Origin: Sphingomonadaceae bacterium
GTDB lineage: Bacteria > Pseudomonadota > Alphaproteobacteria > Sphingomonadales > Sphingomonadaceae
Reading direction: 5' to 3'
Length of the DNA stretch: 32,175 nucleotides
NCBI GenBank assembly: GCA_947476425.1
Contig: CANJQJ010000035.1
Coordinates: 1 to 32,175 of the forward strand
The notes beneath the pieces were generated by a model. That model saw nothing but the letters and a program-made list of their open reading frames with translations, ran no database searches and was not told the DNA's origin. Below are positions 16,555 to 31,872 of this stretch, one piece after another. Each line of letters opens with the position of its first letter. Position 1 is the first letter of the stretch. Both the position numbers and the translations under genes were made by a program.

Positions 16555-16582
16555 TTGGCAACGCGGTAGTATTGGAGATAAT
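16555..16582 (+). promoter_or_regulatory. Sigma70-type promoter for the small RNA candidate
   Basis: TTGGCA (16555-16560) and GATAAT (16577-16582) are separated by 16 bases, each with one mismatch to the TTGACA/TATAAT consensus. Transcription would begin at about 16588-16590, right at the first hairpin of the candidate RNA. The minus-strand lysR start at 16494 is 60 bases to the left, so the lysR promoter probably overlaps this region. Confidence 0.55.
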
Positions 16583-16588
16583 GCAAGA

Positions 16589-16719
16589 TGCAAAAATTGC
16601 AACTAGGAATGTTCACTTCGCACTTGCAGAAAAACCGTTGCGGTCGCAAAAAGATCCTGCCTTTCAGGCATCCTCTCCTAAAACTTTTACGGGGCCGGTT
16701 TTTCCGGCCCCTTTTTTTT
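16589..16719 (+). ncRNA. Candidate small RNA (about 130 nt)
   Basis: The stretch between a good promoter (16555-16582) and a perfect intrinsic terminator (16691-16719) contains no closed reading frame: the frame opening at 16610 runs through the terminator without a stop. It can fold into a series of small hairpins: TGCAA/TTGCA (16589-16601), ACCG/CGGT (16634-16644) and TGCCT/AGGCA (16658-16670). A single-stranded pyrimidine stretch CCTCTCC follows (16672-16678), then the terminator stem. An exposed CCTCTCC next to an intrinsic terminator is the layout of trans-acting alphaproteobacterial sRNAs that pair with ribosome binding sites. An alternative is an attenuated leader of the CDC48 gene, 122 bases downstream. 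I do not recognise the RNA family. Confidence 0.5.
16691..16719 (+). terminator. Strong intrinsic terminator
   Basis: GGGGCCGG (16691-16698) and CCGGCCCC (16704-16711) form a perfect 8-bp GC stem with a 5-T loop, followed by eight T residues (16712-16719). It is the clearest Rho-independent terminator in the window and acts on the plus strand, although no protein gene ends upstream of it. Confidence 0.85.
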
Positions 16720-16841
16720 GTCCCGCGATCTACGTATTTTTCCGGCCTTCCCAGTCTTTTTTTACGCAGACGGGATCGAAACCCCATCGAAACATCTTAT
16801 CTGTTTTCCCATCGGACAATCCGACGGACGGGGAGAGCTTC

Positions 16842-19145
16842 ATGGCAGACGGCGAAACTCCAGCAAAACGACTTCAGGTGGCCAACGCCCGACCAGATGA
16901 TGCCGGGCGCGGGCTCGCCCGATTGTCGCGCGCCGCAATGGCCGAAATCGGCATCGCCGAGGGCGATGTCATCGAAATTCTCGGCAAGCGTCCAACGCCC
17001 TCGCGCGCCGTCCACACCTATCCGGAGGACGAGGGCCTCGACATATTGCGCCTTGATGGCCTCCAGCGCGCCAACGCCGGCGTAGGCTCGGGCGATTTCG
17101 TCGAGATCCGCAAGGCCGAATCCCGCCCGGCCACGCGCGTAGTGTTCGCTCCGGCCCAGCAGAATCTCCGCCTCCAGGGCTCGGGCGAGGCATTGAAGCG
17201 CAGCTTCGGCCTCCGTCCGCTGACCACCGGAGATGTTGTTGCTACCGCCGGACAGCAGCGCGTCGATCGCGGCGACATGCCTCCCGCGCTCCAGCAGATG
17301 CTCAGCGCCCCCGCTTATGCACTCCAGGAAATCCGCCTGATGGTCGTTTCGACGAATCCCAAGGGGATCGTCCACATCACGCCGGAAACCGAAGTCGAAC
17401 TGCGTCCTGAATTCGAGGAAATCCACGAGGTTCGGCGCGCGGACGTAACTTATGACGATCTCGGCGGGCTCGGCACCACCATCGACCAGGTCCGCGAGAT
17501 GGTCGAGTTGCCGTTGCGCTATCCCGAACTGTTCCAGCGGCTCGGCGTCGATCCGCCCAAGGGCGTGCTGCTCCACGGCCCGCCCGGCACCGGCAAGACC
17601 CGGCTCGCCAAGGCGGTGGCCAATGAAAGCCATGCCGAATTCTTCCACATCGCTGGCCCCGAAATAATGGGTTCCGCCTATGGCGAGAGCGAGAAACGCC
17701 TGCGCGAAGTGTTCGAACAGGCTGCCAAGGCTGCGCCGTCGATCATTTTCATCGACGAGATCGATTCGATCGCTCCAAAGCGCTCGCAGGTGACTGGCGA
17801 GGCTGAAAAGCGGTTGGTCGCGCAGTTGCTCACCCTGATGGACGGGCTGGAGCCGCGACAGAATACGGTTGTCATCGCCGCCACCAACCGTCCGGAAGCC
17901 ATTGACGAGGCATTGCGTCGGCCCGGCCGGTTCGATCGCGAAATCGTCATCGGCGTACCGGACGATCGCGGCCGTCGCGAAATTCTCGGCATCCACACCC
18001 GAGGCATGCCGCTCGGTGAAACCGTTGATCTCGATGAACTCGCGCGCACGACCTACGGCTTTGTCGGCGCCGATCTCGCGGCACTGGTGCGCGAGGCGGC
18101 GATCGAGGCCGTACGTGGCATCATGCCGCAGCTGAACCTTGCGGAGGGCACAATCCCCCCCGAGGTGCTCGATACGCTCTCAGTAACGCGTGATGACTTC
18201 CTGGGTGCACTCAAGCGCGTCCAGCCATCGGCGATGCGCGAGGTGATGGTCCAGGCACCTGACGTTCGCTGGACCGACGTGGGCGGGCTCGATGCGGCGC
18301 GCGAGAAGTTGCGCGAAGGCGTGGAGTTGCCGCTGAAGAACCCCGAGGCATTTCGTCGGCTCGGTATCCGCCCAGCCAAGGGCTTCCTGCTTTACGGCCC
18401 ACCCGGCACCGGCAAGACATTGCTTGCCAAGGCGGTGGCTCGTGAAGCGCAGGCCAATTTCATCGCGACAAAGTCGAGCGACCTGCTCTCCAAATGGTAT
18501 GGCGAGAGCGAGCAGCAAATCGCCCGGCTGTTTGCCCGCGCCCGCCAGGTCGCGCCGACGGTGATCTTCTTCGACGAACTCGATTCGCTTGTACCGGCAC
18601 GCGGCGGTGGCCTCGGCGAGCCACAGGTCACGGAGCGCGTCGTCAACACAATTCTTGCCGAAATGGATGGGCTCGAGGAGTTGCAGTCGGTGGTGGTGAT
18701 CGGGGCAACCAATCGACCGAACCTGATCGATCCGGCGCTGTTGCGGCCAGGGCGGTTCGACGAACTTATCTATGTAAGCGTTCCAGATCGCGAAGGCCGC
18801 AAGCGCATCCTGGGCATCCATAGTGCCAGCATGCCACTGGCCGACGACGTTGATCTTGACGACCTCGCCGATCGTACCGAGCGCTTCACCGGAGCTGACC
18901 TCGAGGATCTGGTGCGTCGCGCCGGGCTGAATGCCCTGCGGGAATCGATCGATTCGGCACTGGTCACCGCCGCGCACTTTGAAGCGGCGCTGGGCGATAC
19001 GCGCGCGTCGGTCACGCCGGAGATCGAGCGTGAATATGAGCAGATGGCATCACGCCTGAAGCAGGATTCGATCTCGCTTCAACCGATCGGTTTCGTCAGC
19101 CCGGGGATGCTAAAGCCACGGGATGCGACCAAGGCCGACAGTTGA
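16842..19145 (+). CDS. CDC48/p97-family AAA+ ATPase
   Basis: The 767-residue protein has the complete CDC48/VCP order: an N domain (double-psi-barrel plus CDC48 domain 2, about 1-205), a D1 AAA module and a D2 AAA module. D1 has Walker A GPPGTGKT (246-253) and Walker B IIFIDEID; D2 has Walker A GPPGTGKT (519-526) and Walker B VIFFDELD. Both modules keep the second region of homology with arginine fingers (TNRPEAIDEALRRPGRFDRE and TNRPNLIDPALLRPGRFDEL). p97-type hexamers unfold and extract proteins; the bacterial versions, present in some groups, are poorly studied. No ubiquitin-like partner or adaptor is adjacent. GGGGAG before the ATG at 16842 sets the start; the extension to 16572 crosses the terminator and is rejected. 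Confidence 0.93.
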   Translation: MADGETPAKRLQVANARPDDAGRGLARLSRAAMAEIGIAEGDVIEILGKRPTPSRAVHTYPEDEGLDILRLDGLQRANAGVGSGDFVEIRKAESRPATRVVFAPAQQNLRLQGSGEALKRSFGLRPLTTGDVVATAGQQRVDRGDMPPALQQMLSAPAYALQEIRLMVVSTNPKGIVHITPETEVELRPEFEEIHEVRRADVTYDDLGGLGTTIDQVREMVELPLRYPELFQRLGVDPPKGVLLHGPPGTGKTRLAKAVANESHAEFFHIAGPEIMGSAYGESEKRLREVFEQAAKAAPSIIFIDEIDSIAPKRSQVTGEAEKRLVAQLLTLMDGLEPRQNTVVIAATNRPEAIDEALRRPGRFDREIVIGVPDDRGRREILGIHTRGMPLGETVDLDELARTTYGFVGADLAALVREAAIEAVRGIMPQLNLAEGTIPPEVLDTLSVTRDDFLGALKRVQPSAMREVMVQAPDVRWTDVGGLDAAREKLREGVELPLKNPEAFRRLGIRPAKGFLLYGPPGTGKTLLAKAVAREAQANFIATKSSDLLSKWYGESEQQIARLFARARQVAPTVIFFDELDSLVPARGGGLGEPQVTERVVNTILAEMDGLEELQSVVVIGATNRPNLIDPALLRPGRFDELIYVSVPDREGRKRILGIHSASMPLADDVDLDDLADRTERFTGADLEDLVRRAGLNALRESIDSALVTAAHFEAALGDTRASVTPEIEREYEQMASRLKQDSISLQPIGFVSPGMLKPRDATKADS

Positions 19146-21107: not shown

Positions 21108-21449
21108 ATGGCGCGCGTAACCGTCGAGGATTGCGTCGACAAGGTCTCCAACCGGTTCGATCTGGTTTTGCTTGCCGCTCAGCGTGCACGGCAGATCTCG
21201 TCGGGTGCCGAACTCACGCTCGATCGCGATCGGGACAAGAATCCCGTCGTCGCGCTTCGCGAAATCGCCGAGGAAACTGTCATTCCCGACGATCTTCACG
21301 AAGCCGTGGTCTCCGGACTGCAGCGGCTCCGCGTCGACGATGACGATGCCCCGGATGAAATCGGCTCGCTCAGCGCGTCGGCTGAAGCGCTGCGGCTCAC
21401 CGCCGCCGCGCCGCCGCGCAACCAGAATGTCGGTCCCGACTACGATTGA
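21108..21449 (+). CDS. rpoZ: RNA polymerase omega subunit
   Basis: The 113-residue protein starts [20 protein letters not shown] and continues [20 protein letters not shown] and [15 protein letters not shown], the standard omega core. Omega supports assembly of the beta-prime subunit and forms part of a ppGpp-binding site in proteobacterial RNA polymerase. The tail beyond residue 75 is acidic and then Ala/Pro-rich, as is common in alphaproteobacteria. GGAG (7-8 bases upstream) sets the start at 21108. The rel gene, whose product makes ppGpp, follows 600 bases downstream with an hxlR gene wedged in between on the other strand. The last 10 bases overlap the end of that gene. Confidence 0.96.
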
Positions 21450-21901
21450 TCGATCTCTTGGCGATCGACCCAAGCTAGATCGTTAGGTCCCAGCGGGCGG
21501 CCATCGGCTGCCTGCACTAGGATTTCACGGACTGGCTTGCGATCGCGGGAATCGACCAGCACTGGATTGCTGGGAGAGCAGGATTCCCATCGCTCTCCCC
21601 ACTGGCGAAGCGCAAGCAAAGTCGGCAGCAGCGCCTCGCCTTTCGGAGTCAGCTGATAATTGACTTTGCGGCGATCGCCCGGAAAGGCGCGCCGTTCCAA
21701 TATGCCATGATGGACGAGCTTCGCCAGTCGGCTGGCGAGGATGTTCCTGGCAATGCCGAGCTGGCCCTGGAACTGCTCGAAATGGCTGAGGCCGCGAAAT
21801 GCCCCGCGCAGGATCAAGAACGCCCAGCGTTCCCCCATCGCCTCCAGGGCCGGGGGAAGGCCACATTCGCCCAGACTGCGTTTCAGGTCCTCGTCATCCA
21901 T
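21440..21901 (-). CDS. HxlR family transcriptional regulator
   Basis: The 153-residue winged-helix regulator shows the HxlR/DUF24 pattern: a Cys near the N-terminus (Cys13 in [16 protein letters not shown]), [18 protein letters not shown], then [20 protein letters not shown] and [21 protein letters not shown] roughly 40-residue C-terminal extension follows the usual domain ([17 protein letters not shown]). HxlR proteins are homodimers that often sense thiol or carbonyl stress through the N-terminal Cys. The start at 21901 opens directly onto the domain; longer antisense extensions run through rel and are not real. It diverges from rel over 150 bases and overlaps the end of rpoZ by 10 bases. 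Its target gene is not evident. Confidence 0.85.
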
Positions 21902-22051
21902 ATTGTAACCTAGATAAGGTCTATTGCCTCGGGGACCAAGCGCTAAGGTAGCCCTAGCGGTGCCGTTGAAATCCTCCATCGCGATGCCAGTATCCCATAC
22001 CAAAGCTTCTTTTTGTTGCATCTGCGAGCCCATGCGCCCCATCATGGCGCC

Positions 22052-24145
22052 GTGCTGAGACAATATGAACTTGTAGAACGCGTGAAGGGCTATGACCCGG
22101 ACGCCGATGAGGCGTTGATCAATCGCGCCTATGTCTTTTCGATGCAGGCACATGGCAGCCAGAAACGGGCAAGCGGGGATCCTTATTTCAGCCACCCGAT
22201 CGAGGTGGCGGGCATTTTGACTGATCTCCACCTCGACGATGAATCGATCGTTACGGCACTGCTCCACGATACGATCGAGGATACGCTCGCCACGGCCGAG
22301 CAGATCGAGAAGAGTTTCGGGCCCAACATCGCGCGGCTGGTTGACGGGGTCACGAAACTTTCGAAGATCGAGGCGCAGACCGAAAACGAGCGCGCCGCCG
22401 AAAATCTGCGCAAGTTCCTTCTTGCCATGTCCGACGACATCCGGGTCCTGCTCGTCAAGCTTGCCGACCGCCTGCACAACATGCGGACGCTGCATTATAT
22501 TCCTTCCGTCGAGAAGCGGCGGAGGATCGCCCGCGAGACGCTCGATATCTATGCACCGCTTGCCGAGCGCATCGGCATGTACGAGTTCATGAAGGAAATG
22601 CAGGAGCTCGCCTTTCGGGAGATCGAGCCCGATGCCTATGCTTCGATCGTGAAGTGGCTCGAGCATCTCCACGAGGGCGGCGGCAATCTGATTGCGCGGA
22701 TCGGCTCGGGGGTTCGCCTGCTGCTCGGCCGGAGCGGGATCAAGGCCGAGGTCCAGGGGCGCGAAAAGCATCCCTACTCGATCTGGCGCAAGATGGCGGA
22801 ACGCCACATCAGCTTCGAGCAATTGTCCGACGTGATGGCGTTCCGGGTGATCGTCAACAATGTCGAGGAATGCTATCAGGCGCTCGGCCTGATCCACCAG
22901 AAATGGCCGATGGTTCCCGGCCGCTTCAAGGATTATGTCTCGACGCCGAAGCGCAACGGCTATCGATCGCTCCACACTTCGGTGATCCATTCCGAGAAAA
23001 TGCGGATCGAGATCCAGATCCGCACCGCCGAAATGCATGCCCAGGCCGAATTCGGGCTCGCCGCCCACTGGGCGTACAAGCAGGAGGACATCTCCCAGCC
23101 GGACGCCCATGTCAGCTGGATCCGCGACCTCATCGAGATTCTGGATCATGCAGATACGCCCGAGGAGTTGCTCGAACATACCCGCATGGCGATGTACCAG
23201 GATCGCATCTTCGCCTTCACGCCGACCGGCGAACTGATCCAGCTCCCCAAGGGCGCGACCCCGGTTGACTTCGCCTATGCCGTCCACACCGATCTTGGCG
23301 ACCAGACCGTCGGCGCTAAGGTCAATGGCCGGGTCGTCCCGTTGCGCACGCCGATCGAGAATGGCGACCAGGTCGAGATCCTGCGTTCCAAGGCGCAGGA
23401 GCCCGAGGTCGGATGGCTCAATTTCGTGACGACCGGCAAGGCGCGCGCAGCGATCCGGCGCTATGTTCGCCACCGCGAGCGCGACGAACTCGTCGCGCTT
23501 GGCCGCAAATTCTACGACGAGATCGTCCAGCGGCTGCCCGCGCAACTCGGCCAGGAAGCGCTCGCGCTTGCCTGCCGCCGGCTCAACCTGATCGATGCGG
23601 AAGCGCTGATGGAGGCGATCGCCCGGCGCACGCTGACCGACGCGCAGGTGATGGAAGCGCTGATGCCCGGCTCGGTTGGCAGCGACGCCAGCGCCCCCTT
23701 CCAGGGCCAGCGGCAGGCAATCTCGATCCGCGGCCTCACCCCGGGCGTTGCCTATGATCTTGCGACCTGCTGCCACCCAGTGCCGGGCGATCGAATCGTC
23801 GGGTTGCGCAAGCCAGGTGAATCGGTCGAGGTCCACGCGATCGACTGTCCGAAGCTGGCGGACGGAGTCGATGCCGACTGGGTCGATCTCGCCTGGGGCG
23901 ACGGATCGGACGGCGGCACCGCCCAGCTTTCGATGATCCTCAAGAACGAAGCCGGCGCACTCGGCGTGGCATCGAGCATCCTTGGGGCGCACGGCGCGAA
24001 TATCGTCAACCTGACGATGTCGCACCGCGACTCGAGTTTCCACACCTACCTCGTCACGATCGAGGTGCGCGACGTCCAGCACCTGATGCGAATCATTGCC
24101 GCGCTGCGCGCTGCCGAGGCGGTAAGCCAGGCGGAACGAGTCTAG
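22052..24145 (+). CDS. rel: Bifunctional (p)ppGpp synthetase/hydrolase (Rel/SpoT)
   Basis: The 697-residue RelA/SpoT homologue has all domains. The HD hydrolase (about 20-180) shows His48 in FSHPIEVAG and the His72-Asp73/Glu76-Asp77 motif of LLHDTIEDT. The synthetase (about 230-380) shows HPYSIWRKM and RFKDYVSTPKRNGYRSLHTS. The TGS domain shows RIFAFTPTGELIQLPKGATP, and a C-terminal ACT domain shows IRGLTPGVAYD and the tail LKNEAGALGVASSILGAHGA. The RFKD motif marks the bifunctional class rather than the synthetase-only ExDD class. It controls the stringent response by making and degrading ppGpp. The GTG at 22052 (MLRQYELVERVK) matches the usual N-terminus; a TTG at 22013 would add 13 unconserved residues. 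Confidence 0.95.
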   Translation: MLRQYELVERVKGYDPDADEALINRAYVFSMQAHGSQKRASGDPYFSHPIEVAGILTDLHLDDESIVTALLHDTIEDTLATAEQIEKSFGPNIARLVDGVTKLSKIEAQTENERAAENLRKFLLAMSDDIRVLLVKLADRLHNMRTLHYIPSVEKRRRIARETLDIYAPLAERIGMYEFMKEMQELAFREIEPDAYASIVKWLEHLHEGGGNLIARIGSGVRLLLGRSGIKAEVQGREKHPYSIWRKMAERHISFEQLSDVMAFRVIVNNVEECYQALGLIHQKWPMVPGRFKDYVSTPKRNGYRSLHTSVIHSEKMRIEIQIRTAEMHAQAEFGLAAHWAYKQEDISQPDAHVSWIRDLIEILDHADTPEELLEHTRMAMYQDRIFAFTPTGELIQLPKGATPVDFAYAVHTDLGDQTVGAKVNGRVVPLRTPIENGDQVEILRSKAQEPEVGWLNFVTTGKARAAIRRYVRHRERDELVALGRKFYDEIVQRLPAQLGQEALALACRRLNLIDAEALMEAIARRTLTDAQVMEALMPGSVGSDASAPFQGQRQAISIRGLTPGVAYDLATCCHPVPGDRIVGLRKPGESVEVHAIDCPKLADGVDADWVDLAWGDGSDGGTAQLSMILKNEAGALGVASSILGAHGANIVNLTMSHRDSSFHTYLVTIEVRDVQHLMRIIAALRAAEAVSQAERV

Positions 24146-24560
24146 GCTTACGATCACAATAGTCACGCATATCGCGTTACAAACGCGCGCGAATGCGCCC
24201 AGAAACATAATTATATTACAACGCAGATCGGACGCGATTTTTTGCGGGAGCGAAATGATTCCGGCGTACGAACGATGCGTCACCATGATTCGCTATCTAA
24301 CTGATTAGATTAGGTGTAGGACAGCGATTAATTGGCCTTCGCCAGTTCAGCGCGCAAAATCTGTTGCTCCTGCGAAGCGACAAAATTCGACCGATCCTCG
24401 GCCCAGCATGCCTGATTGGTAACGCATTGTGCCCGGCGCCCATTTTCGGCGCTCACAACCCTCAACTTGCCTCAAATCAAGGCAAGCGGTCGCACGCCAG
24501 ACCTTCGCACCCGCAACCGGATCGCGGTTTGCAGCGTTAGGCATTTCGGAGACAGCATTT
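24146..24560 (+). other. Non-coding leader between rel and the GT4/GH130 genes
   Basis: These 415 bases contain no gene I can support. They hold an AT-rich stretch (24206-24222), an uncertain 17-codon open frame with a GGGAG site (24255-24308), a perfect CGCGTT/AACGCG inverted repeat (24173-24187) and a 7-7-7 inverted repeat at 24466-24486. It probably carries the promoter of the downstream pair; no clear -35/-10 pair stands out. I see no intrinsic terminator for rel. Confidence 0.5.
24466..24486. repeat. 7-7-7 inverted repeat upstream of the GT4 gene (possible operator)
   Basis: CTTGCCT (24466-24472) and AGGCAAG (24480-24486) are perfect inverted copies separated by 7 bases, and sit 75-95 bases before the ATG at 24561. 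The shape suits a dimeric regulator site or an mRNA hairpin. There is only one copy, so this is tentative. Confidence 0.35.
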
Positions 24561-26882
24561 ATGACATTTCACGAAACGCGTCCGAGATCCTTCAGCCCTT
24601 TTCCGTCCGACGACCTGACTCACGACCCGAAACCCGTTCGCAAGCTCGCGATGATCGGCAATTTCGCACCGCGTCGCTGTGGCCTGGCGACCTTCACGAC
24701 CGATAGCTGGGCAGCGCTTCGTGGCCGATATCCCGGGCTGGCAATCGACGTCTATGCGATGACCGATCCGGGCCAAATCTATGATTATCCGGAGGCAGTC
24801 ACCACCAGCATCCCGGAGAATGACGTATCGGCTTATGTCGATGCTGCCCGCCAGATCGAGAATAGTGGCGCTGACCTGATCTGGCTGCAGCATGAATTCG
24901 GCATTTATGGTGGCGAGGCCGGCGAACATATCCTGCGCCTGCTCGATCGAACGAGCACGCCGCTGATCGTGACGCTTCACACGATTCTCGAAGACCCCAA
25001 TCCGGCGCAGCGCCGCGTTATCGACGCGTTGCTTCGCCGCGCGGCGAAGGTCATCGTCATGGCCGAGGCCGGTCGCGAGATCCTGATCCGCCGCTATGGC
25101 GCGCACAGCAGCCAGATCGCCGTAATCGCGCACGGCATTCCCGACTGCCCTTTTGCGGAGCCCGAAGTGCTGAAGGAAAAGCTCGACCTTGCCGGCCGCG
25201 ACGTGATCCTGACCTTCGGCCTGCTTTCGCCCGACAAGGGCATCGAAACGATGATCGAGGCGCTTCCGGAGATCGTCGCAAATGCGAAGCGCCCGGTATT
25301 GTATGTCGTGCTTGGCGCGACACATCCCCACCTCGTCGCACGCGAGGGCGAAGCCTATCGCGAACGGCTGCAGAAGCAGGCTGCTGAACTTGGCGTCGAG
25401 GAAAATATCCGCTGGATAAATGCCTTCGTCGAGCTCGACGAGCTCACCGACTATCTCACGGCATCGGATATCTACGTGACGCCCTATCTCAATCCGGGGC
25501 AGATCACGTCGGGAACGCTCGCCTACGCGATCGGACTGGGCAAGCCGGTGGTATCGACGCCCTATATCCATGCGCGGGAATTGCTCGCTGCAGATCATGG
25601 CCGACTGGTCGATTTCCGCGACAGCGCGGGATTTGCCAGCGAGATATCAAAACTGCTCGACGACGGCGAAACGCGGGACGAGGTGCGCCACCGCGCCTAT
25701 GCGCTCGGCCGGACGATGATCTGGCCACGCTATGCCGAAGCAGTGATGGACGAACTGATGGCGGCGGGCACGACGCTGGCCCCGCGGATCGCGATCGCAC
25801 CGCGCCGCGCGATCCCCGCCTCGATATCCTTCCAGGCGATCGAGCGACTGAGCGATTCAACCGGCATGTTCCAGCACAGCCTCTATTCGGTGCCCGATCG
25901 CAATCACGGCTACTGCGTCGACGACAATGCCCGCGCGATGCTGCTGATGAACATGCTCAAGGACCTGCCTGACGAAAGGCATGATCGCTGGGCACCGGTC
26001 TACGCCTCGTTCATTCAATATGCGTGGAATCCGGACACGGGCGCATTTCGCAATTTCATGTCCTATGATCGCCGCTGGCTGGAAGATACTGGCTCCGACG
26101 ACAGTTCGGGCCGAACGCTCTGGGCGATCGGCGTAACGGCGCGCGACAACCGGCTCGACCAGCTTCGCAAATGGTCTTCAGCGCTGTTCGACCAGGTCGC
26201 GGGCCATGCGATGAAGCTGGTATCGCCGCGCGCAAGCGCCTTCGCGCTGCTCGGGGCAGATGCAATACTGACCGCCCACCCCAGGCATGCACTCGCGATG
26301 GAGCTGATCCGTGCCAAGGGCGAGTTGCTGATGGCATTGGTCGCACGTAATCGCCTACCCGACTGGGCGTGGTTCGAGATCGTGCTCGGCTATGATAATT
26401 GCCGCTTGCCTGAAGCACTGCTCCGGGCGGGGTGGGTGCTGGGACGCGACGACATGATCGCGACCGGATTGGAAACGCTGAAGTGGATCGTTGGCCACCA
26501 GACCGCGAGCGAAGGCCATTTCCGCGCTGTCGGAAGCGAGAGCTTCGGCCGGGTGCTGCAGAAGCCTGAAAAGTTCGACCAGCAGCCGCTCGAGGCCTGG
26601 GCGACAATCGACGCCTGCGCGCTGGCGCACGAAATGACTGGCGATGAAGCATGGCGCGAGCATGGGCTGACCGCCTATCGCTGGTTTCTCGGCGAGAATG
26701 ATCTCGGCCTGCCGCTGGGCGATCCAATCACGGGTGAGTGCTTCGACGGATTGATGCCGGGCGGGCTTAATCTCAATCAGGGCGCCGAGTCAGTGCTCGC
26801 ATTTCACCTCGCCACGGCAGCGACAAGACGGCTTTTCGATGAAATCCGAGAGGATAGGGAGTTGAGCCTCGTGATGCGATAA
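24561..26882 (+). CDS. GT4 mannosyltransferase-like glycosyltransferase fused to a C-terminal alpha/alpha-barrel-like domain
   Basis: The 773-residue protein has a GT-B glycosyltransferase at about 25-405: MIGNFAPRRCGLATFTTD (31-48), IWLQHEFGIYGG (107-118), LTFGLLSPDKGIETMIEALP (217-236) and NPGQITSGTLAYAIGLGKPV (311-330). The last segment replaces the usual Ex7E with a form typical of the 'GT4 mannosyltransferase-like' subgroup. Residues about 420-773 form a helical region with NHGYCVDDNARAMLL (448-462), WLEDTGSDDSSGRTLWAIG (506-524) and LNLNQGAESVLAFHLA near the end. This pattern resembles six-hairpin glycosidase barrels. A fused transferase/lyase or hydrolase role is possible but unproven. 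CGGAGA lies about 10 bases before the ATG. The GH130 gene follows after 15 bases, clearly in one operon. Confidence 0.8.
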   Translation: MTFHETRPRSFSPFPSDDLTHDPKPVRKLAMIGNFAPRRCGLATFTTDSWAALRGRYPGLAIDVYAMTDPGQIYDYPEAVTTSIPENDVSAYVDAARQIENSGADLIWLQHEFGIYGGEAGEHILRLLDRTSTPLIVTLHTILEDPNPAQRRVIDALLRRAAKVIVMAEAGREILIRRYGAHSSQIAVIAHGIPDCPFAEPEVLKEKLDLAGRDVILTFGLLSPDKGIETMIEALPEIVANAKRPVLYVVLGATHPHLVAREGEAYRERLQKQAAELGVEENIRWINAFVELDELTDYLTASDIYVTPYLNPGQITSGTLAYAIGLGKPVVSTPYIHARELLAADHGRLVDFRDSAGFASEISKLLDDGETRDEVRHRAYALGRTMIWPRYAEAVMDELMAAGTTLAPRIAIAPRRAIPASISFQAIERLSDSTGMFQHSLYSVPDRNHGYCVDDNARAMLLMNMLKDLPDERHDRWAPVYASFIQYAWNPDTGAFRNFMSYDRRWLEDTGSDDSSGRTLWAIGVTARDNRLDQLRKWSSALFDQVAGHAMKLVSPRASAFALLGADAILTAHPRHALAMELIRAKGELLMALVARNRLPDWAWFEIVLGYDNCRLPEALLRAGWVLGRDDMIATGLETLKWIVGHQTASEGHFRAVGSESFGRVLQKPEKFDQQPLEAWATIDACALAHEMTGDEAWREHGLTAYRWFLGENDLGLPLGDPITGECFDGLMPGGLNLNQGAESVLAFHLATAATRRLFDEIREDRELSLVMR

Positions 26883-26897
26883 CCTATCGCAGTAACG

Positions 26898-28178
26898 ATG
26901 CTCGACCTTCATCATCACGACCTGCGGCTGCGCGCCGATCCATCACGTGTCGTGGTGCGACCCTTTCACCTGCCGCCGACCGCCGACCATAATGGCCAGA
27001 GCCGGGCTAACCGGATTGTCCAGCACGTCCTGTCGCTCGACCCGGCGGCCGTGGAAACCGAACTCACGCTGGTGTTCAAGGATTTCGAAGCGCGCCATTG
27101 GCAAACGCGCAAGGTATTCGAATCGCGCTTCGCCGAGATCGAAGCCGAGGTGGGGCTGTCCGGATCAAGGCTCGCCCAGCCGGTGCGCGAGTTGATCGGC
27201 GCCTATTTCTGCCACGAATATAGCTATGCGGCAGCGGCACTGATGAACCCGAGCGTGGTTCGCCATCCCGACCAGAGCGGATTGCGCGAAGGATCGGTTC
27301 GAATCCTGATGTCGCTTCGTGCAGTCGGCGAAGGTCATATCTCGTCGATTGCGTTTCGCGAGGGCATCGTCTCGCCCAATCGCGAGTTCGAGCTGATGCC
27401 CGAGCCGCCTTTCGCGACGGCTGCCAACTCTGCCCAGGCGCACCACGCGGGATCCGACGAGATCGTGACAATTCGCCGCCGGGCGGACAGCACGATTTCG
27501 GGTACGGTGCTGTTTCCGGTGACCAATGCGCAACGCAACGGCCTCGAGGACCTGAGGCTCGTCACCTTCACCCATCCCGACGGCAGCCGCGAATGGATCG
27601 GCACCTATACGGCGTATAATGGCTATGCGATCCGTTCGGAGCTGTTGCGTACGCGGGATTTCCACAGCTTCGACATGGTGCCGATGATGGGGAGCGCTGC
27701 GCGCAACAAGGGGATGGCGCTGTTTCCCTCGGCGCATGACGGCGTGTACCGGATGATCGGCCGGCAGGATGGCGAGAATCTGTTCCTGATCGAATCGGAC
27801 GACCTCACCAACTGGGGCGAGGGCCAGCTGCTGATGAAGCCGAAATATCCGTGGGAATTCGTGCAGATCGGCAATTGCGGATCGCCGATCGAGCTCGACG
27901 AGGGCTGGCTGCTGCTCACCCACGGCGTCGGCGCGATGCGCAAATATGCGATCGGGGCAGTGCTCCTCGACAAGAAGGATCCGTCAAAGGTGCTGGGGCG
28001 GACCAAGCACCCGATCCTTTCCGCCGCCGACGAGGATCGCGAGGGCTATGTTCCCAACGTGGTCTACACATGCGGCGCGCTGCGGGTCGGGACCGATCTG
28101 TTCATGCCGTATGGCGTGGCGGACAGCGCGGTGGCGTTTGCGTTTTTTCCGTTGAAGGACTTGCTTGATTTGATGTGA
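26898..28178 (+). CDS. Glycoside hydrolase family 130 protein (beta-mannoside phosphorylase family)
   Basis: The 426-residue protein has the five-bladed beta-propeller signatures of GH130: NGLEDLRLVTF (214-224) with probable proton-donor Asp218, WIGTYTAYNG, KGMALFPS...GVYRMIGRQD (271-291), SDDLTNWGEGQLL and GNCGSPIELDEGWLLLTHGV (325-344). It ends with VLLDKKDPSKVLGRTKHPIL and EGYVPNVVYTCGAL. GH130 enzymes mostly phosphorolyse beta-mannosides to mannose 1-phosphate; some are hydrolases. The first 110 residues are a helical extension with no recognised domain. The linkage used cannot be told from the sequence. There is no signal peptide, so it is cytoplasmic. Translation is probably coupled to the upstream GT4 gene, as no strong ribosome binding site is seen before 26898. 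Confidence 0.88.
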   Translation: MLDLHHHDLRLRADPSRVVVRPFHLPPTADHNGQSRANRIVQHVLSLDPAAVETELTLVFKDFEARHWQTRKVFESRFAEIEAEVGLSGSRLAQPVRELIGAYFCHEYSYAAAALMNPSVVRHPDQSGLREGSVRILMSLRAVGEGHISSIAFREGIVSPNREFELMPEPPFATAANSAQAHHAGSDEIVTIRRRADSTISGTVLFPVTNAQRNGLEDLRLVTFTHPDGSREWIGTYTAYNGYAIRSELLRTRDFHSFDMVPMMGSAARNKGMALFPSAHDGVYRMIGRQDGENLFLIESDDLTNWGEGQLLMKPKYPWEFVQIGNCGSPIELDEGWLLLTHGVGAMRKYAIGAVLLDKKDPSKVLGRTKHPILSAADEDREGYVPNVVYTCGALRVGTDLFMPYGVADSAVAFAFFPLKDLLDLM

Positions 28179-28204
28179 GTTGGGTGGGTGCCTGGGCCCC
28201 GCTT

Positions 28205-28339
28205 CGTCATCCCGACGCCCATTTCGTCATCCCGACGGACGTCGGGATCCATGGGACCCACAGGTCTAGCGATCGAGGAAACTCCGTATCGTGGATACCG
28301 GCGTCCGTCGGGATGACGGAGGGGGGCGTCGGGATGACG
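28205..28339. repeat. Cluster of palindromic CGTCATCCCGACG repeats
   Basis: Two direct copies of CGTCATCCCGACG (28205-28217 and 28225-28237) face two inverted copies, CGTCGGGATGACG (28306-28318 and 28327-28339). Unit 2 continues with a GACGTCGGGATCCATGGG arm that makes an inner palindrome. The four copies are exact. The block sits between the convergent GH130 and crtB genes, where it can fold into a large hairpin and may act as a terminator or mRNA stabiliser. Such REP/BOX-like repeats are common in sphingomonads; this one should recur elsewhere in the genome. Confidence 0.85.
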
Positions 28340-28353
28340 GGGAGGGAGGTTTA

Positions 28354-29235
28354 CTACGGCCTGGCGTACAGACCCATCCTGCCTGGATCCGCGATGCGGC
28401 GGCGGAGTAGCGCTTGCGCGAAGGCGCGAGCGACCCAGCCGAGCTTGGCAGTTTTCGAAGTCGTGACCCGGCGATCCCAGGCGGCATCGCCGCGGGCCCG
28501 GACTTCGCGGGCGATGTCGCCGTAGATGCCGGCTGCGGCAAGCACCGCCCAGGCCGAGCGAAAGCGCAATGTGCGGGCGCCGTGGCGGGCGCTGGCTTCG
28601 TGCGCTTCGGCCAGGGCGGCGAGACGCACTGCGATGCCGGCGCGGGGCTCGCCTTGCCAATCGCGGGGCACATAGCATCGCCCGGCGGCTTCATCCTCGG
28701 CAAGATCGCGCGCGATGTTGGCGAGCTGGAAGGCGATGCCGAGATCGCAGGCGCGATCGAGAGTCGCGGCATCGGCGGGATCGACTCCCATTATCACAGC
28801 CATCATGCAGCCGACCGCGCCGGCAACATGGTAGCAATATCGGTAGAGATCGGCTTCGTCCTGCGGCCGGAACCCGTCGGCATCGAGCGCGAAGCCGTCG
28901 ACGAGATCATGGATGTAGCGCGGCGGGATGCGGCATTCGCGGGCGACCACGCCGAGCGCATCGAATGCGGGGTTGCCGGTTTCCGCGCCGGCCAGCGACC
29001 TGGCAGTCAGCGCGCGGATCGTGGCGAGCCGGGCGTGCGGATCGCTGACCTCGGTCATGCCGTGGCCGAGGACCTGGCCATCGGCGAGATCGTCGGCGGC
29101 GCGGCACCACGCGTAGAGCAGCCATGCCCGCTCGCGGGTCACCGGATCAAAGAGCGCGCTGGCGGCGCCGAAGCTCTTCGATCCGCGCGCGATTGAGTCC
29201 CGGGCGAAGGCGACCAGTTCAGTGCGCGAAATCAT
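28354..29235 (-). CDS. crtB: Phytoene synthase
   Basis: The 293-residue squalene/phytoene synthase condenses two geranylgeranyl diphosphates to phytoene. Both Mg2+-diphosphate-binding Asp motifs are present: DDLAD (48-52, in YAWCRAADDLAD) and DLAED (177-181, in FQLANIARDLAEDEAAGRCY). The segment YCYHVAGAVGCMM is also typical. It is the last gene of the crtY-crtI-crtB operon. Its ATG at 29235 lies 17 bases inside the end of crtI, so translation is probably coupled. It is soluble or peripherally bound to the membrane. Confidence 0.94.
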   Translation of the reverse strand: MISRTELVAFARDSIARGSKSFGAASALFDPVTRERAWLLYAWCRAADDLADGQVLGHGMTEVSDPHARLATIRALTARSLAGAETGNPAFDALGVVARECRIPPRYIHDLVDGFALDADGFRPQDEADLYRYCYHVAGAVGCMMAVIMGVDPADAATLDRACDLGIAFQLANIARDLAEDEAAGRCYVPRDWQGEPRAGIAVRLAALAEAHEASARHGARTLRFRSAWAVLAAAGIYGDIAREVRARGDAAWDRRVTTSKTAKLGWVARAFAQALLRRRIADPGRMGLYARP

Positions 29236-30712
29236 GCAGCATCAGGCCTGCGGTTGCCTTGGCCGAGCCGACCACGCCGGGAATGCCGGCACCGGGGTGA
29301 GTCCCGGCGCCGACGAAATAGAGATTGGGGATCTTGTCATCGCGATTATGGACCCGGAACCATGCCGATTGCGTGAGGATCGGCTCGAGGCTGAAGGCGG
29401 AGCCGAGATGCGCGTTGAGATCATGCCCGAAATCGGCTGGGGTGTAGTGGAAGCTGGTGACGATTCGCTCGCGGATATCGGGGATCAGCCGGCGCTCGAT
29501 CTCGTCGAGGATTCGATCGCGGTAGATCGGCCCGATCTCGTCCCAATCGACCGGGAGCTTGCCCATGTGGGGGACCGGGGCGAGCGCGTAGAAGGTCGAG
29601 CAGCCTTCGGGCGCGAGGCTCGGATCGCTGACCGTGGGGTGGTGGAGATAGAGCGAGAAATCGCTCGACAGCACGCCATGCTCGTAAATGTCGGTGAGCA
29701 GTTCGCGATAACGCGGGCCGAACAGGATCATGTGGTGCGGGATTTCCGGGCACGTGCCCTTGATGCCGAAGTGGACGACGAAGAGCGACGGCGAGAAGCG
29801 CTTGGCGACGAGCTTCTTCGCGACCTTCTGGCCGCGCGCCGAACCGGAGAGCAGATCGCGATAGCTATGGACGATGTCGCTGTTGCAGGCGACCGAGTCG
29901 AAGCTGTCGCGCCAGCCGCTGGCGGTTCGCACGCCAGTGACCTTGTCGCCGAGGGTCTCGATCTCGACGACCGGATCGCCGAGGCGGATGGTGCCGCCGA
30001 GCCGCTCGAACTGGGTGACCATCGCGCGGACGAGGGCATTGGTGCCGCCCTTGGCGAACCAGACGCCGCCATCCTTCTCGAGCTTGTGGATGAGAGCGTA
30101 GATTGCGCTGGTCGTCATCGGATTGCCGCCGACGAGCAGGGTGTGGAAACTCAGCGCCTCGCGCAGCTTCTCGCTCTGCACGAAGGAGGAGACCATCGAA
30201 TAGACCGAGCGCCATGCCTGGTAGCGCGCGAGCGCCGGCGCGGCGCGGACCATGCTGGCAAGATCGAGGAACGGCACCGCGCCGAGCTTGACATAGCCCT
30301 CCTCATAGACCCCAGCGGCATATTCGAGGAAGCGCTGGTAGCCCTCGACATCGGCCGGGTTGAGCTTCTCGATCTCGCGGTAGAGCAAGGGCTCATCGTT
30401 CGAGTAATCGAAGTTGGTGCCGTCGGGCCAGTTGAGGCGGTAGAATGGCATCACCGGCATCAGCTCGACATCCTGGGCCATGCTGCGGCCGGAGAGCTTC
30501 CACAATTCCTCGAGGCAGGCGGGATCGGTGATCACGGTGGGGCCGGCGTCGAAGGTGAAGCCGTCCCTCTCCCAGACATAGGCGCGGCCGCCGGGCTTGT
30601 CGCGCGCCTCGACGATCGTCGTCGCGACGCCAGCCGATTGCAGCCGGATGGCGAGCGCGAGGCCGCCGAAGCCGGCGCCGATGACCGCAGCAGTGCGTCT
30701 CGTAGCGCTCAT
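29219..30712 (-). CDS. crtI: Phytoene desaturase
   Basis: The 497-residue CrtI-type FAD enzyme converts phytoene to lycopene by stepwise desaturation. The dinucleotide-binding fold is at the N-terminus (AAVIGAGFGGLALAIRLQ, then EARDKPGGRAYVWERDGF), and the bacterial CrtI signature GAGTHPGAGIPGVVGSAKAT is at the C-terminus. The start at 30712 has the crtY stop overlapping it as ATGA (30709-30712), a classic coupling signal, and gives the standard CrtI length. A longer frame to 31156 runs into crtY and is not used. No crtE or hydroxylase gene lies nearby. Confidence 0.95.
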   Translation of the reverse strand: MSATRRTAAVIGAGFGGLALAIRLQSAGVATTIVEARDKPGGRAYVWERDGFTFDAGPTVITDPACLEELWKLSGRSMAQDVELMPVMPFYRLNWPDGTNFDYSNDEPLLYREIEKLNPADVEGYQRFLEYAAGVYEEGYVKLGAVPFLDLASMVRAAPALARYQAWRSVYSMVSSFVQSEKLREALSFHTLLVGGNPMTTSAIYALIHKLEKDGGVWFAKGGTNALVRAMVTQFERLGGTIRLGDPVVEIETLGDKVTGVRTASGWRDSFDSVACNSDIVHSYRDLLSGSARGQKVAKKLVAKRFSPSLFVVHFGIKGTCPEIPHHMILFGPRYRELLTDIYEHGVLSSDFSLYLHHPTVSDPSLAPEGCSTFYALAPVPHMGKLPVDWDEIGPIYRDRILDEIERRLIPDIRERIVTSFHYTPADFGHDLNAHLGSAFSLEPILTQSAWFRVHNRDDKIPNLYFVGAGTHPGAGIPGVVGSAKATAGLMLHDFAH

Positions 30713-31872
30713 TTGCCGCCTCCCGCGATGGCGCGAAGCGCGCGGCCGATCGGGACCGGCGGCTTGCCCATGAGCATTTCGAGCTTGTCCGACCAGGTGG
30801 AGCGAGCGCCGTAGAAACGCGCGATCAGCCGCTCGTCGTGGCGATAGAATTGATCGAGTATCTTCCAGCGCTCCGGAGGATGCGCGGCGCGAAACAGCAT
30901 GCGGGTGAGCATCCGGTAGAAGCCTCGCTTTTGCCAGAGCGCCTTGGCCTCGGCATGAAGAGTGTCGTGAAGCGTCTCGCCCGAGAGATCCGGCATCGCC
31001 GCGATTCGAGTCGCGGTGCGAACGGCATCGGAGAGGCTGTAGCCGGTCAGCGGATGGAAATTGCCGGCGCGGACGCCAGCCTTGGCGATGCCGTCGCCAC
31101 CGGATTGCCAATAGGCATCGAAATCGCCGCCCATCACGACTGGCACCATCCCGCATTCCTCGCGCACCACCTCGGCGACCTTCCAGCCCCGCGCCGCTGC
31201 GTAATGGGCGATGCGCGGGGTGATGACGCCCGGCGCGAGATGCGGCCGGCTGCTGTAGTAGGTGTCCTCGATCAGCAACCGATCGGGCGCGAAGGGCAGC
31301 ACATAGAGAAAGCGGTAGCCATCGATCTGCTCGAGATTGGCATCCATGATGATCGGACGCTCGAGCGAATGCGGCTGGGAAAGACGGACCTCCTGGCCGA
31401 CGAATTTCTGCCAGCCAAGCTCGAGACGATCGAGATCGCCCGGCCCGCGCGCGTCGATGACGCCGCCAGCTTCGATGACTCGACCATCCTCGAGCAGGAC
31501 CGACGTCGGCCCGGCAGCGTGGATTCGGCCACCCGTGACGATCGCCTCGGGCGGCAGGGCGGCCCGGACCTGCTGGTCGAGCCGTTCCGATCGCACCGAA
31601 TGATAGGCGCCCGGCAGAGTGCGACGATAATGCGGGAACACGACGTCGTGCCCGGCCCAGCTGTGGCTGACGAGCGGCGCGGCCAGCCAGCGATCGGCGG
31701 GCGCGATGTCGCTTTCGAAGAACGACCAGATGTGATTGCCGCCGATCACATCGTTCTGCTCGATGAGCAGCACCGACACGTCGGGCCTGCGCTTCGCCAG
31801 CGCAAGCGCGATCAGGCCTCCCGCCAGACCTCCACCCAAGATCGCGACATCATACTTGTCCGGCTGCACCAT
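30709..31872 (-). CDS. crtY: Lycopene beta-cyclase
   Basis: The 387-residue FAD/NAD(P)-dependent cyclase converts lycopene to beta-carotene. The dinucleotide motif is AILGGGLAGGLIALAL near residues 10-25. The bacterial CrtY segments GGNHIWSFFESDI, RPIIMDANLEQIDGYRFLY and LLIEDTYYS are present, the last containing the acid residue typical of the active-site region. ATG at 31872 is preferred to the GTG at 31887, because the GTG overlaps the probable -10 element. With that promoter the message would start at about the ATG, so crtY may be leaderless. It is the first gene of the crt operon. Confidence 0.93.
   Translation of the reverse strand: MVQPDKYDVAILGGGLAGGLIALALAKRRPDVSVLLIEQNDVIGGNHIWSFFESDIAPADRWLAAPLVSHSWAGHDVVFPHYRRTLPGAYHSVRSERLDQQVRAALPPEAIVTGGRIHAAGPTSVLLEDGRVIEAGGVIDARGPGDLDRLELGWQKFVGQEVRLSQPHSLERPIIMDANLEQIDGYRFLYVLPFAPDRLLIEDTYYSSRPHLAPGVITPRIAHYAAARGWKVAEVVREECGMVPVVMGGDFDAYWQSGGDGIAKAGVRAGNFHPLTGYSLSDAVRTATRIAAMPDLSGETLHDTLHAEAKALWQKRGFYRMLTRMLFRAAHPPERWKILDQFYRHDERLIARFYGARSTWSDKLEMLMGKPPVPIGRALRAIAGGGK

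Follow-up and report, generated by a model that had tools for sequence, protein, structure and literature searches.

A conserved gene pair for a GT4-like/barrel fusion protein and a GH130-family protein in Sphingomonadaceae, a candidate unit of cytoplasmic mannoside metabolism

In Thermoanaerobacter sp. X-514, the cluster Teth514_1785-1796 is described as coding for two GH130 phosphorylases, a mannose-1-phosphate guanylyltransferase, and a GT4 enzyme, and as serving salvage into GDP-mannose (PMC4264767). For Leishmania, a β-1,2-mannan reserve called mannogen is reported together with propeller enzymes (GT108) that display dual transferase/phosphorylase activity (PMC8950772). Here we analyse a pair of genes from a Sphingomonadaceae bacterium (assembly GCA_947476425.1) which encode a GT4-like domain fused to an α/α-barrel and, next to it, a member of family GH130. 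The pair occupies positions 24,561 to 28,178 of contig CANJQJ010000035.1, which was analysed over 32,175 nucleotides (the window); the 2.8 Mb genome to which this contig belongs has a single match for each of the two genes. Our preferred explanation, to which we assign a probability of about one half, is that the gene pair constitutes a conserved functional unit for the cytoplasmic metabolism of a β-mannose-containing glycan.

The first gene (24561..26882, + strand) codes for a protein of 773 amino acids consisting of a GT4-like GT-B domain (residues ~25-400; 24633..25760, +) and an (α/α)6-barrel (residues ~413-765; 25797..26855, +), an assignment based on Pfam, on a predicted structure, and on the same fusion in relatives. 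After a gap of 15 bases follows the second gene (26898..28178, +) for a GH130-family protein of 426 amino acids, for which Pfam and a structural model indicate a five-bladed propeller. This protein is of a long type, the hallmark of which is a helical insert in the first blade (residues ~28-104; 26979..27209, +). The coordinates, start codons, and 15-base gap of the original prediction are right, and its view that both proteins lack a signal peptide agrees with our finding that neither contains a hydrophobic stretch resembling a signal peptide or a membrane helix (highest 19-residue Kyte-Doolittle mean 1.43).

Occurrence and conservation of the gene pair

In the genome contigs scanned, the barrel has at least 579 relatives. 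Among the best 80 of them, nearly all from Sphingomonadales by title, the GT4-like part, the barrel, and GH130 are present in all 80, the fusion is a single open frame in 79 (the exception being L127), and GH130 is located downstream on the same strand in 79, with implied gaps of -101 to +80 bases, while it is on the opposite strand in L140. Since 79 of 80 relatives keep it, the order of fusion and GH130 is far from what chance would produce. In an even draw of 147 genomes of the order, 26 possess a barrel match; three weak matches (L026, L027, and L029) were set aside, the first two of which proved to be the solo proteins L059 and L060, and the 25 strong ones (E <= 1e-40, from 24 genomes, the window included) all have the fusion in one frame. 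GH130 adjoins the fusion in each of the 24 loci with enough flanking sequence, downstream in 22, upstream in L057, and convergently in L054, the match not counted here (G048) being on a contig of 3.3 kb. At the level of the phylum, 20 of 398 genomes match and, with the weak G150 set aside, provide ten strong new loci (L162-L171), eight of which include GH130. The other two are incomplete at contig ends: L171 stops 0.4 kb past the fusion and has spoT but no GH130 upstream, and L169 begins within the fusion and has no GH130 over 4 kb downstream. In L162 the GT4 part is split over two frames, and this copy may be broken or mis-sequenced. Little or no information came from loci L061 and L172. The locus sets overlap (L089 and L039 are apparently the same region), and the counts are not independent. 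The survey of adjacency, which had been set beforehand as a test of the idea of a single system, finds GH130 next to the fusion in nearly every locus that can be checked.

The pair also occurs on plasmids. Barrel matches were found in 28 plasmid records, 16 of them predicted conjugative, and of 15 plasmid regions that were read, ten chosen from these records and five from 69 records with GH130 matches, 12 contain the fusion-GH130 pair, and one contains a solo homologue of the barrel whose start is signal-like. Altogether, the pair ranges over Pseudomonadota, Fusobacteriota, and Deinococcota. The Ilyobacter (Fusobacteriota) version comprises two GH130 genes, and that of Deinococcus has a GT4 gene between the fusion and a short GH130 annotated as hypothetical. 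The partner in family f8 and in Deinococcus is a short-type GH130, 26-30% identical to that of the window and still beside the fusion. The pair is real and conserved, and its genes are very likely coupled in function.

Two further observations concern its components. Within 9 kb, L217 (5999-14402) encodes a long-type GH130 that is an orphan, a barrel-less GT4-like protein, and a universal-stress-like protein, possibly a split version of the unit. A Deinococcus gene annotated as hypothetical (L178, 11179-12150) codes for a GH130 protein (PF04041, E 1.9e-49).

Domains and conserved residues of the two proteins

A GT4 domain had been predicted in the first gene, and Pfam GT4/GT1 domains are indeed found at residues 62-380, with GT-B membership indicated by PF00534 (67.2 bits, cut-off 26.4) and PF13439 (39.3 bits, cut-off 28.5). 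For the C-terminal part (residues 405-773), no Pfam family scores above its cut-off. An AlphaFold2 model built from 56 sequences (pLDDT 89.5, pTM 0.89) consists of twelve helices that form an (α/α)6-barrel, which agrees with the α/α-barrel proposed earlier for residues 420-773. Structural neighbours of both proteins are reported for the families present in the VIA lists. The top match of the barrel is 7tem (YPO2471; Z 37.5, root mean square deviation (rmsd) 2.7, 334 aligned residues, 20% identity), followed by an endoglucanase-related protein (Z 29.1, rmsd 3.1, 345 aligned), and GH76 is also matched (Z 27.9, rmsd 3.2, 308 aligned), although the Pfam cut-off for GH76 α-mannanases is not reached, only one of 28 barrel members giving a match (E 0.14).

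Nine fused sequences, two solo homologues, and three solo homologues with signal-like N-termini were compared by eye. The motifs DDNARA (residues 454-459) and DTGSDDSSGRT (residues 509-519) had been noted as conserved, and D454, D455, R458, and R518 within them are identical throughout this set. Conservation across the compared homologues extends to N498, W604, N613, W708, N713, D729, N739, and E743, so that D729 and E743, like D454 and D455, are shared with the signal-bearing solo forms, among which H439, Y451, and R504 vary. The signal-bearing solo barrel of L182 is encoded inside an operon with LacI, a sugar ABC transporter, and GH130, and this location ties the barrel to GH130 substrates. 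That of L060 (436 amino acids) has a GH130 gene in the same 16 kb, and no GH130 was found beside that of L059 (424 amino acids) on its contig of 7.6 kb. A glycosidase-like role of the barrel on GH130-related mannosides seems the likelier one. As an observation in its own right, the signal-like barrel homologues of L182 (4110-9742) and L060 (6874-13896) are accompanied by short-type GH130 proteins with Arg271 and Lys323, an arrangement that is likely a catabolic cousin of the fusion-GH130 pair; L224 and L225 have GH130 genes like those of L182 and L060, and a barrel homologue was not detected in them.

The second protein belongs to PF04041 (98.3 bits, cut-off 26; E 5.4e-28), and its model (pLDDT 86.6) superimposes on Lin0857 (Z 35.0) and Uhgb_MS (Z 34.4), each with rmsd 2.3 and 286 aligned residues, and on Teth514_1788 (Z 34.0, rmsd 2.1, 282 aligned), the range for the set of solved phosphorylases and Uhgb_MS being Z 34.0-35.0, rmsd 2.0-2.3, and 281-288 aligned residues. 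It matches 5a7v, by title the hydrolase BT3780, with Z 30.6, rmsd 2.6, and 292 aligned residues. The predicted helices 36-103 come after the first strand, and the helical part of about 75 residues is therefore an insert in the first blade and not the N-terminal extension for which it had been taken.

The loci yield 125 GH130 sequences, of which 114 have N117, E217, D218, K271, R289, Q323, H342, Y350, and D409 in common, and the remaining 11 carry Arg or Lys at position 323. In Teth514_1788, the mannose in subsite -1 is described as held by Asn28, Asp92, and Asp281 (PMC4264767). The corresponding residues are kept, N117 in 124 of 125 sequences (the other shows a gap) and D218 and D409 in all 125. 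Phosphate is reported to be bound by three basic residues, with glutamates in their place in hydrolases, and a Tyr/Glu change next to the catalytic acid is given as a mark of the hydrolase-rich GH130_NC group (PMC4599007). The window protein has Glu217, and Glu is also present in the phosphorylase Lin0857. Lys271 aligns with Lys in four solved enzymes (9fj8, 7fip, 5b0p, and 9eqq); the putative marker for β-1,2 linkages is Lys199 of BT3780, which itself lies outside the alignment of that column. The cut-offs of the NCBIfam equivalogs for β-1,2-mannobiose phosphorylases were not reached (NF050092, 136.6 of 550 bits; NF052550, 127.5 of 450 bits). When 38 chosen GH130 sequences were compared, 25 had an insert of 73-84 residues, every one together with Gln323, and these long-type sequences form one clade (support 100/99). 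The other 13 have Lys or Arg at 323 and 0-2 residues at the insert site, except for L122_2 and L053_2 with about 50. Loci L049, L053, L119, L122, and L140 contain an additional GH130 with Arg at 323.

Mannose supply, possible roles, and surroundings of the pair

An involvement of mannose had been proposed and gains support from the neighbours of the pair in a minority of relatives, where genes for mannose-6-phosphate isomerase (PMI), phosphomannomutase (PMM), or mannose-1-phosphate guanylyltransferase (ManC) are found. All three occur together once, on plasmid pBAR3 of Sphingomonas bisphenolicum, where groES, groEL, ManC, PMI, the fusion, GH130, and PMM stand in a row. On other Sphingomonadaceae plasmids ManC precedes the fusion-GH130 pair, PMI is situated just before the fusion in Devosia, Sinorhizobium, and five genomes of the same class, and it follows GH130 in four order-level loci (L048 and L050-L052). 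The genome of the window possesses a ManC-type gene and two PMM/PGM genes away from the pair. A ManC-type gene (E <= 1e-40) is present in 24 of 24 carriers of the unit and in 102 of 123 other genomes of the order (Fisher p 0.025), an association that is weak because the genomes differ in completeness and kinship. Given that some relatives have PMI, PMM, or ManC next to the pair, its currency is likely GDP-mannose or mannose 1-phosphate.

We propose that the unit probably makes and recycles a mannose-containing glycan inside the cell, with enzymes of known kinds whose active sites are altered in both proteins. Mannose 6-phosphate would be converted to mannose 1-phosphate and on to GDP-mannose by enzymes whose genes adjoin the pair in some relatives and, in the genome of the window, are found away from it. 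The GT4-like domain might start or extend a mannoside from activated mannose, and the GH130 protein might interconvert terminal β-mannosyl residues, most likely β-1,2-linked, and mannose 1-phosphate, thereby mobilising or extending the glycan according to the direction of the reaction. Tethered to the transferase, the glycosidase-like barrel could trim or remodel the same glycan, which might serve as a reserve or as a stress protectant.

Several findings weigh against this explanation. The active site of canonical retaining GT4 enzymes comprises an E-x7-E motif and an Arg/Lys pair that binds the nucleotide sugar. In 122 of 122 loci, E-x7-E is replaced by Q314-x7-Y322 (Tyr in 119, Phe in 3) and the Arg of the G-R-L motif by Leu (L221), His191 and Lys226 being retained, so that the earlier designation as a mannosyltransferase cannot be kept as a certainty; judged from these residues, the domain may employ a different donor or mechanism. 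Gln323 (codon at 27864..27866, +) stands where short-type GH130 proteins and the four solved enzymes have Lys or Arg, and this weakens the reading as a phosphorylase; of the proposed GH130-type phosphorylase, the family membership stands on PF04041 and the fold, and the phosphorylase activity is not certain. Canonical GT4 enzymes use retaining chemistry and form α-linkages, whereas GH130 enzymes cut β-linkages, and the closed cycle of synthesis and salvage through one bond that had been suggested is thus not established. GH130 might instead extend β-mannosyl chains on a primer made by the GT4-like domain, or the altered GT4-like domain might form β-bonds. Solo barrels without either partner occur in two Croceicoccus marinus plasmid regions. 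In the order-level draw, 26 long-type GH130 matches are near full length, five of which are paralogues not located beside the fusion, and the barrel is missing from three of the 28 GT4-like matches, one of which is truncated. A PMI, ManC, or PMM gene (or one for an AGE epimerase) neighbours the pair in only 24 of 120 loci from overlapping sets, in two of which (L088 and L127) it lies on the opposite strand at a distance of some 5 kb, and the window and most relatives are without one. Stress genes are uncommon off plasmids (DnaK 1/80, Hsp20 1/80, and GroEL 0/80 among the best relatives; Hsp20 3/23 and USP 2/23 in order-level loci; GroEL 2/10 in phylum-level loci). Replacement of glycogen was considered and gained no support, as strong GlgA matches (E <= 1e-20) occur in four of 24 carriers and 16 of 123 non-carriers among the 147 order-level genomes (Fisher p 0.74; two weaker matches left uncounted); the window's own genome gave no GlgA match, which means little alone. 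In the literature, no biochemical work on a long-type GH130 or on the fusion was found.

The residue at position 323 also bears on the possible, though doubtful, alternative that the long-type GH130 is a hydrolase or a synthase dependent on a nucleotide sugar or mannose 1-phosphate and not a phosphorylase, the insert and Gln323 marking the change. Judged from the spacing relative to BT3780, column 323 may be among the three positions that bind phosphate, and this limits the weight of Gln323 for the alternative. The strict association of insert and Gln323 within one clade speaks for such a change, as does the occurrence of long and short GH130 side by side, as if they divided labour, both in Ilyobacter and in a further class of the phylum. 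It is opposed by the basic residues R289 and H342, retained in 125 of 125 sequences like the mannose-binding residues with their one gap, and by the short type standing alone in f8 and Deinococcus, which suggests overlapping roles. For the barrel, the match to cellobiose 2-epimerase (Z 29.0, rmsd 3.0, 329 aligned) raises the quite improbable option of a sugar 2-epimerase acting on mannose/glucose or on the reducing end of an oligosaccharide. A separate AGE epimerase gene follows GH130 on two Rhizobium plasmids, but next to an epimerase barrel this gene would be redundant. Pfam GlcNAc_2-epim (AGE/cellobiose 2-epimerase) does not reach its cut-off, matching one of 28 members (E 0.028) and not the domain of the window, and H439 is the one His among the polar residues invariant in the nine fused sequences, whereas AGE enzymes use several.

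Other alternatives concern the product. A small mannoside of one to three sugars might be formed as a compatible solute under stress, GH130 regaining mannose 1-phosphate afterwards. This idea would be in keeping with the cytoplasmic nature of both proteins and with the genes for chaperones, Dps, and universal-stress proteins that several plasmids carry close to the unit, and a motif following the EcfG-type general-stress promoter consensus lies upstream in five of 121 loci, compared with eight of 2420 segments drawn at random from these loci. Nevertheless, this motif is missing in 116 of 121 upstream regions, including the 415 bases of the window, the stress neighbours are uncommon in genome loci, and profile searches reveal neither a phosphatase nor a known solute-synthase family in the pair, so that we regard such a function as unlikely. 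Even less probable is a role in the envelope glycan, with lipopolysaccharide, exopolysaccharide, or glycolipid precursors being edited in the cytoplasm. The GT4-like domain scores best, though weakly, against MshA (presumably represented by structure 3c4q) and PimA, families of transferases for inositol- and lipid-glycans, but a flippase, a polymerase, or a polyprenyl-phosphate transferase is annotated in none of the 12 pair-bearing plasmid regions, the tables of which are incomplete. A more far-reaching version of the β-mannan reading, which we put forward only tentatively and consider rather unlikely, is a "bacterial mannogen" in at least three phyla. In this version, an intracellular β-1,2-mannan would be made by a GT4-like domain without the canonical retaining site (perhaps a new inverting β-mannosyltransferase or a mannose-1-phosphate-using enzyme). 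The barrel would trim this mannan, and its turnover would fall to a new GH130 subfamily with a rebuilt phosphate site (insert and Gln323), in parallel to the reserve mannan of Leishmania.

If metabolism of a β-mannose-containing glycan is the true function, a mannose-based intracellular glycan would join the known reserve or stress glycans of bacteria, and the unit responsible for it is common, with its at least 579 barrel relatives, and plasmid-borne. The two altered sites, a GT4-like site without E-x7-E and a GH130 site with Gln at a presumed phosphate position, offer a probe for changes of reaction type in transferases and phosphorylases, and the α/β mismatch between the two families is a concrete, testable puzzle. 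No publication dealing with this fusion or with a GT4-barrel/GH130 unit of bacteria was found among titles and the beginnings of abstracts in the open-licence literature.

Upstream, an intergenic region of 415 bases (24146..24560, +) separates the fusion from a relA/spoT gene (22013-24145) directly 5' of it. A spoT gene is likewise just upstream in L171, which belongs to another class, but since spoT is within reach of the unit in none of the best 80 relatives, this linkage is taken as chance. An open frame of 948 amino acids on the opposite strand (21440-24286, -), in which Pfam recognizes only an HxlR regulator (residues 817-901), overlaps relA over most of its length. Downstream of the pair, inverted paired copies of the GTCATCCCGACG repeat, of a REP/BIME-like family, are present at 28196-28346. 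In the genome, the 26-base core of this repeat is matched 163 times (77 forward, 86 reverse; <=2 mismatches; none for the reversed-pattern control), and some of the matches listed are opposite-orientation pairs 66 bases apart. Just 3' of the pair and on the opposite strand (28354-31156, -) are genes of the phytoene synthase and phytoene desaturase families of the carotenoid pathway, and at 16572-19145 the window encodes a double AAA ATPase of the CDC48 type with CDC48 N-domains, in a bacterium. PADLOC gave no match for a defence system.

Comparison with described enzymes and clusters

YPO2471 (7tem) shares its fold with the barrel of the fusion, and the equivalents of D729 and E743 align in a significant stretch, whereas the DD pair is aligned only in a weak one (i-Evalue 680). 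Unlike the fusion protein, YPO2471 is named an exported protein, stands alone, and has no transferase. The GH130 protein resembles Teth514_1788/1789, Lin0857, and Uhgb_MS in its five-bladed propeller, in Lys271, Arg289, and His342, which align, and in the Asn/Asp/Asp set for mannose binding, but differs from them in the helical insert of blade 1 and in Gln within the Lys/Arg323 column. The Leishmania GT108 enzymes possess the same propeller fold and are more distant, with Z 20.7-21.5, rmsd 3.2-3.3, 260-262 aligned residues, and 12-14% identity (6q50: Z 21.5, rmsd 3.2, 260 aligned); 2b4w, a hypothetical protein, scores Z 21.4. No Leishmania enzyme is among the sequence matches of the window protein, 18 at E up to 1 and 18 at E up to 10. 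The available part of the account of the mannogen system makes no mention of a GT4-barrel partner (PMC8950772).

As far as it is described, the Thermoanaerobacter X-514 cluster combines the same kinds of GH130 and GT4 proteins, acts on β-1,2-mannosides, and has mannose 1-phosphate feeding GDP-mannose; it also includes an ABC importer and is read as salvaging an imported glycan (PMC4264767). In contrast, no transporter gene adjoins the pair of the window, and an internally made glycan is therefore the simplest reading. The window further differs in the barrel attached to its GT4-like domain and in its GH130, which is of the long type with Gln323. By analogy, the unit of the window is best read as a variant of the Thermoanaerobacter GH130/GT4 cluster that would be devoted to the synthesis and turnover of a mannoside in the cytoplasm.

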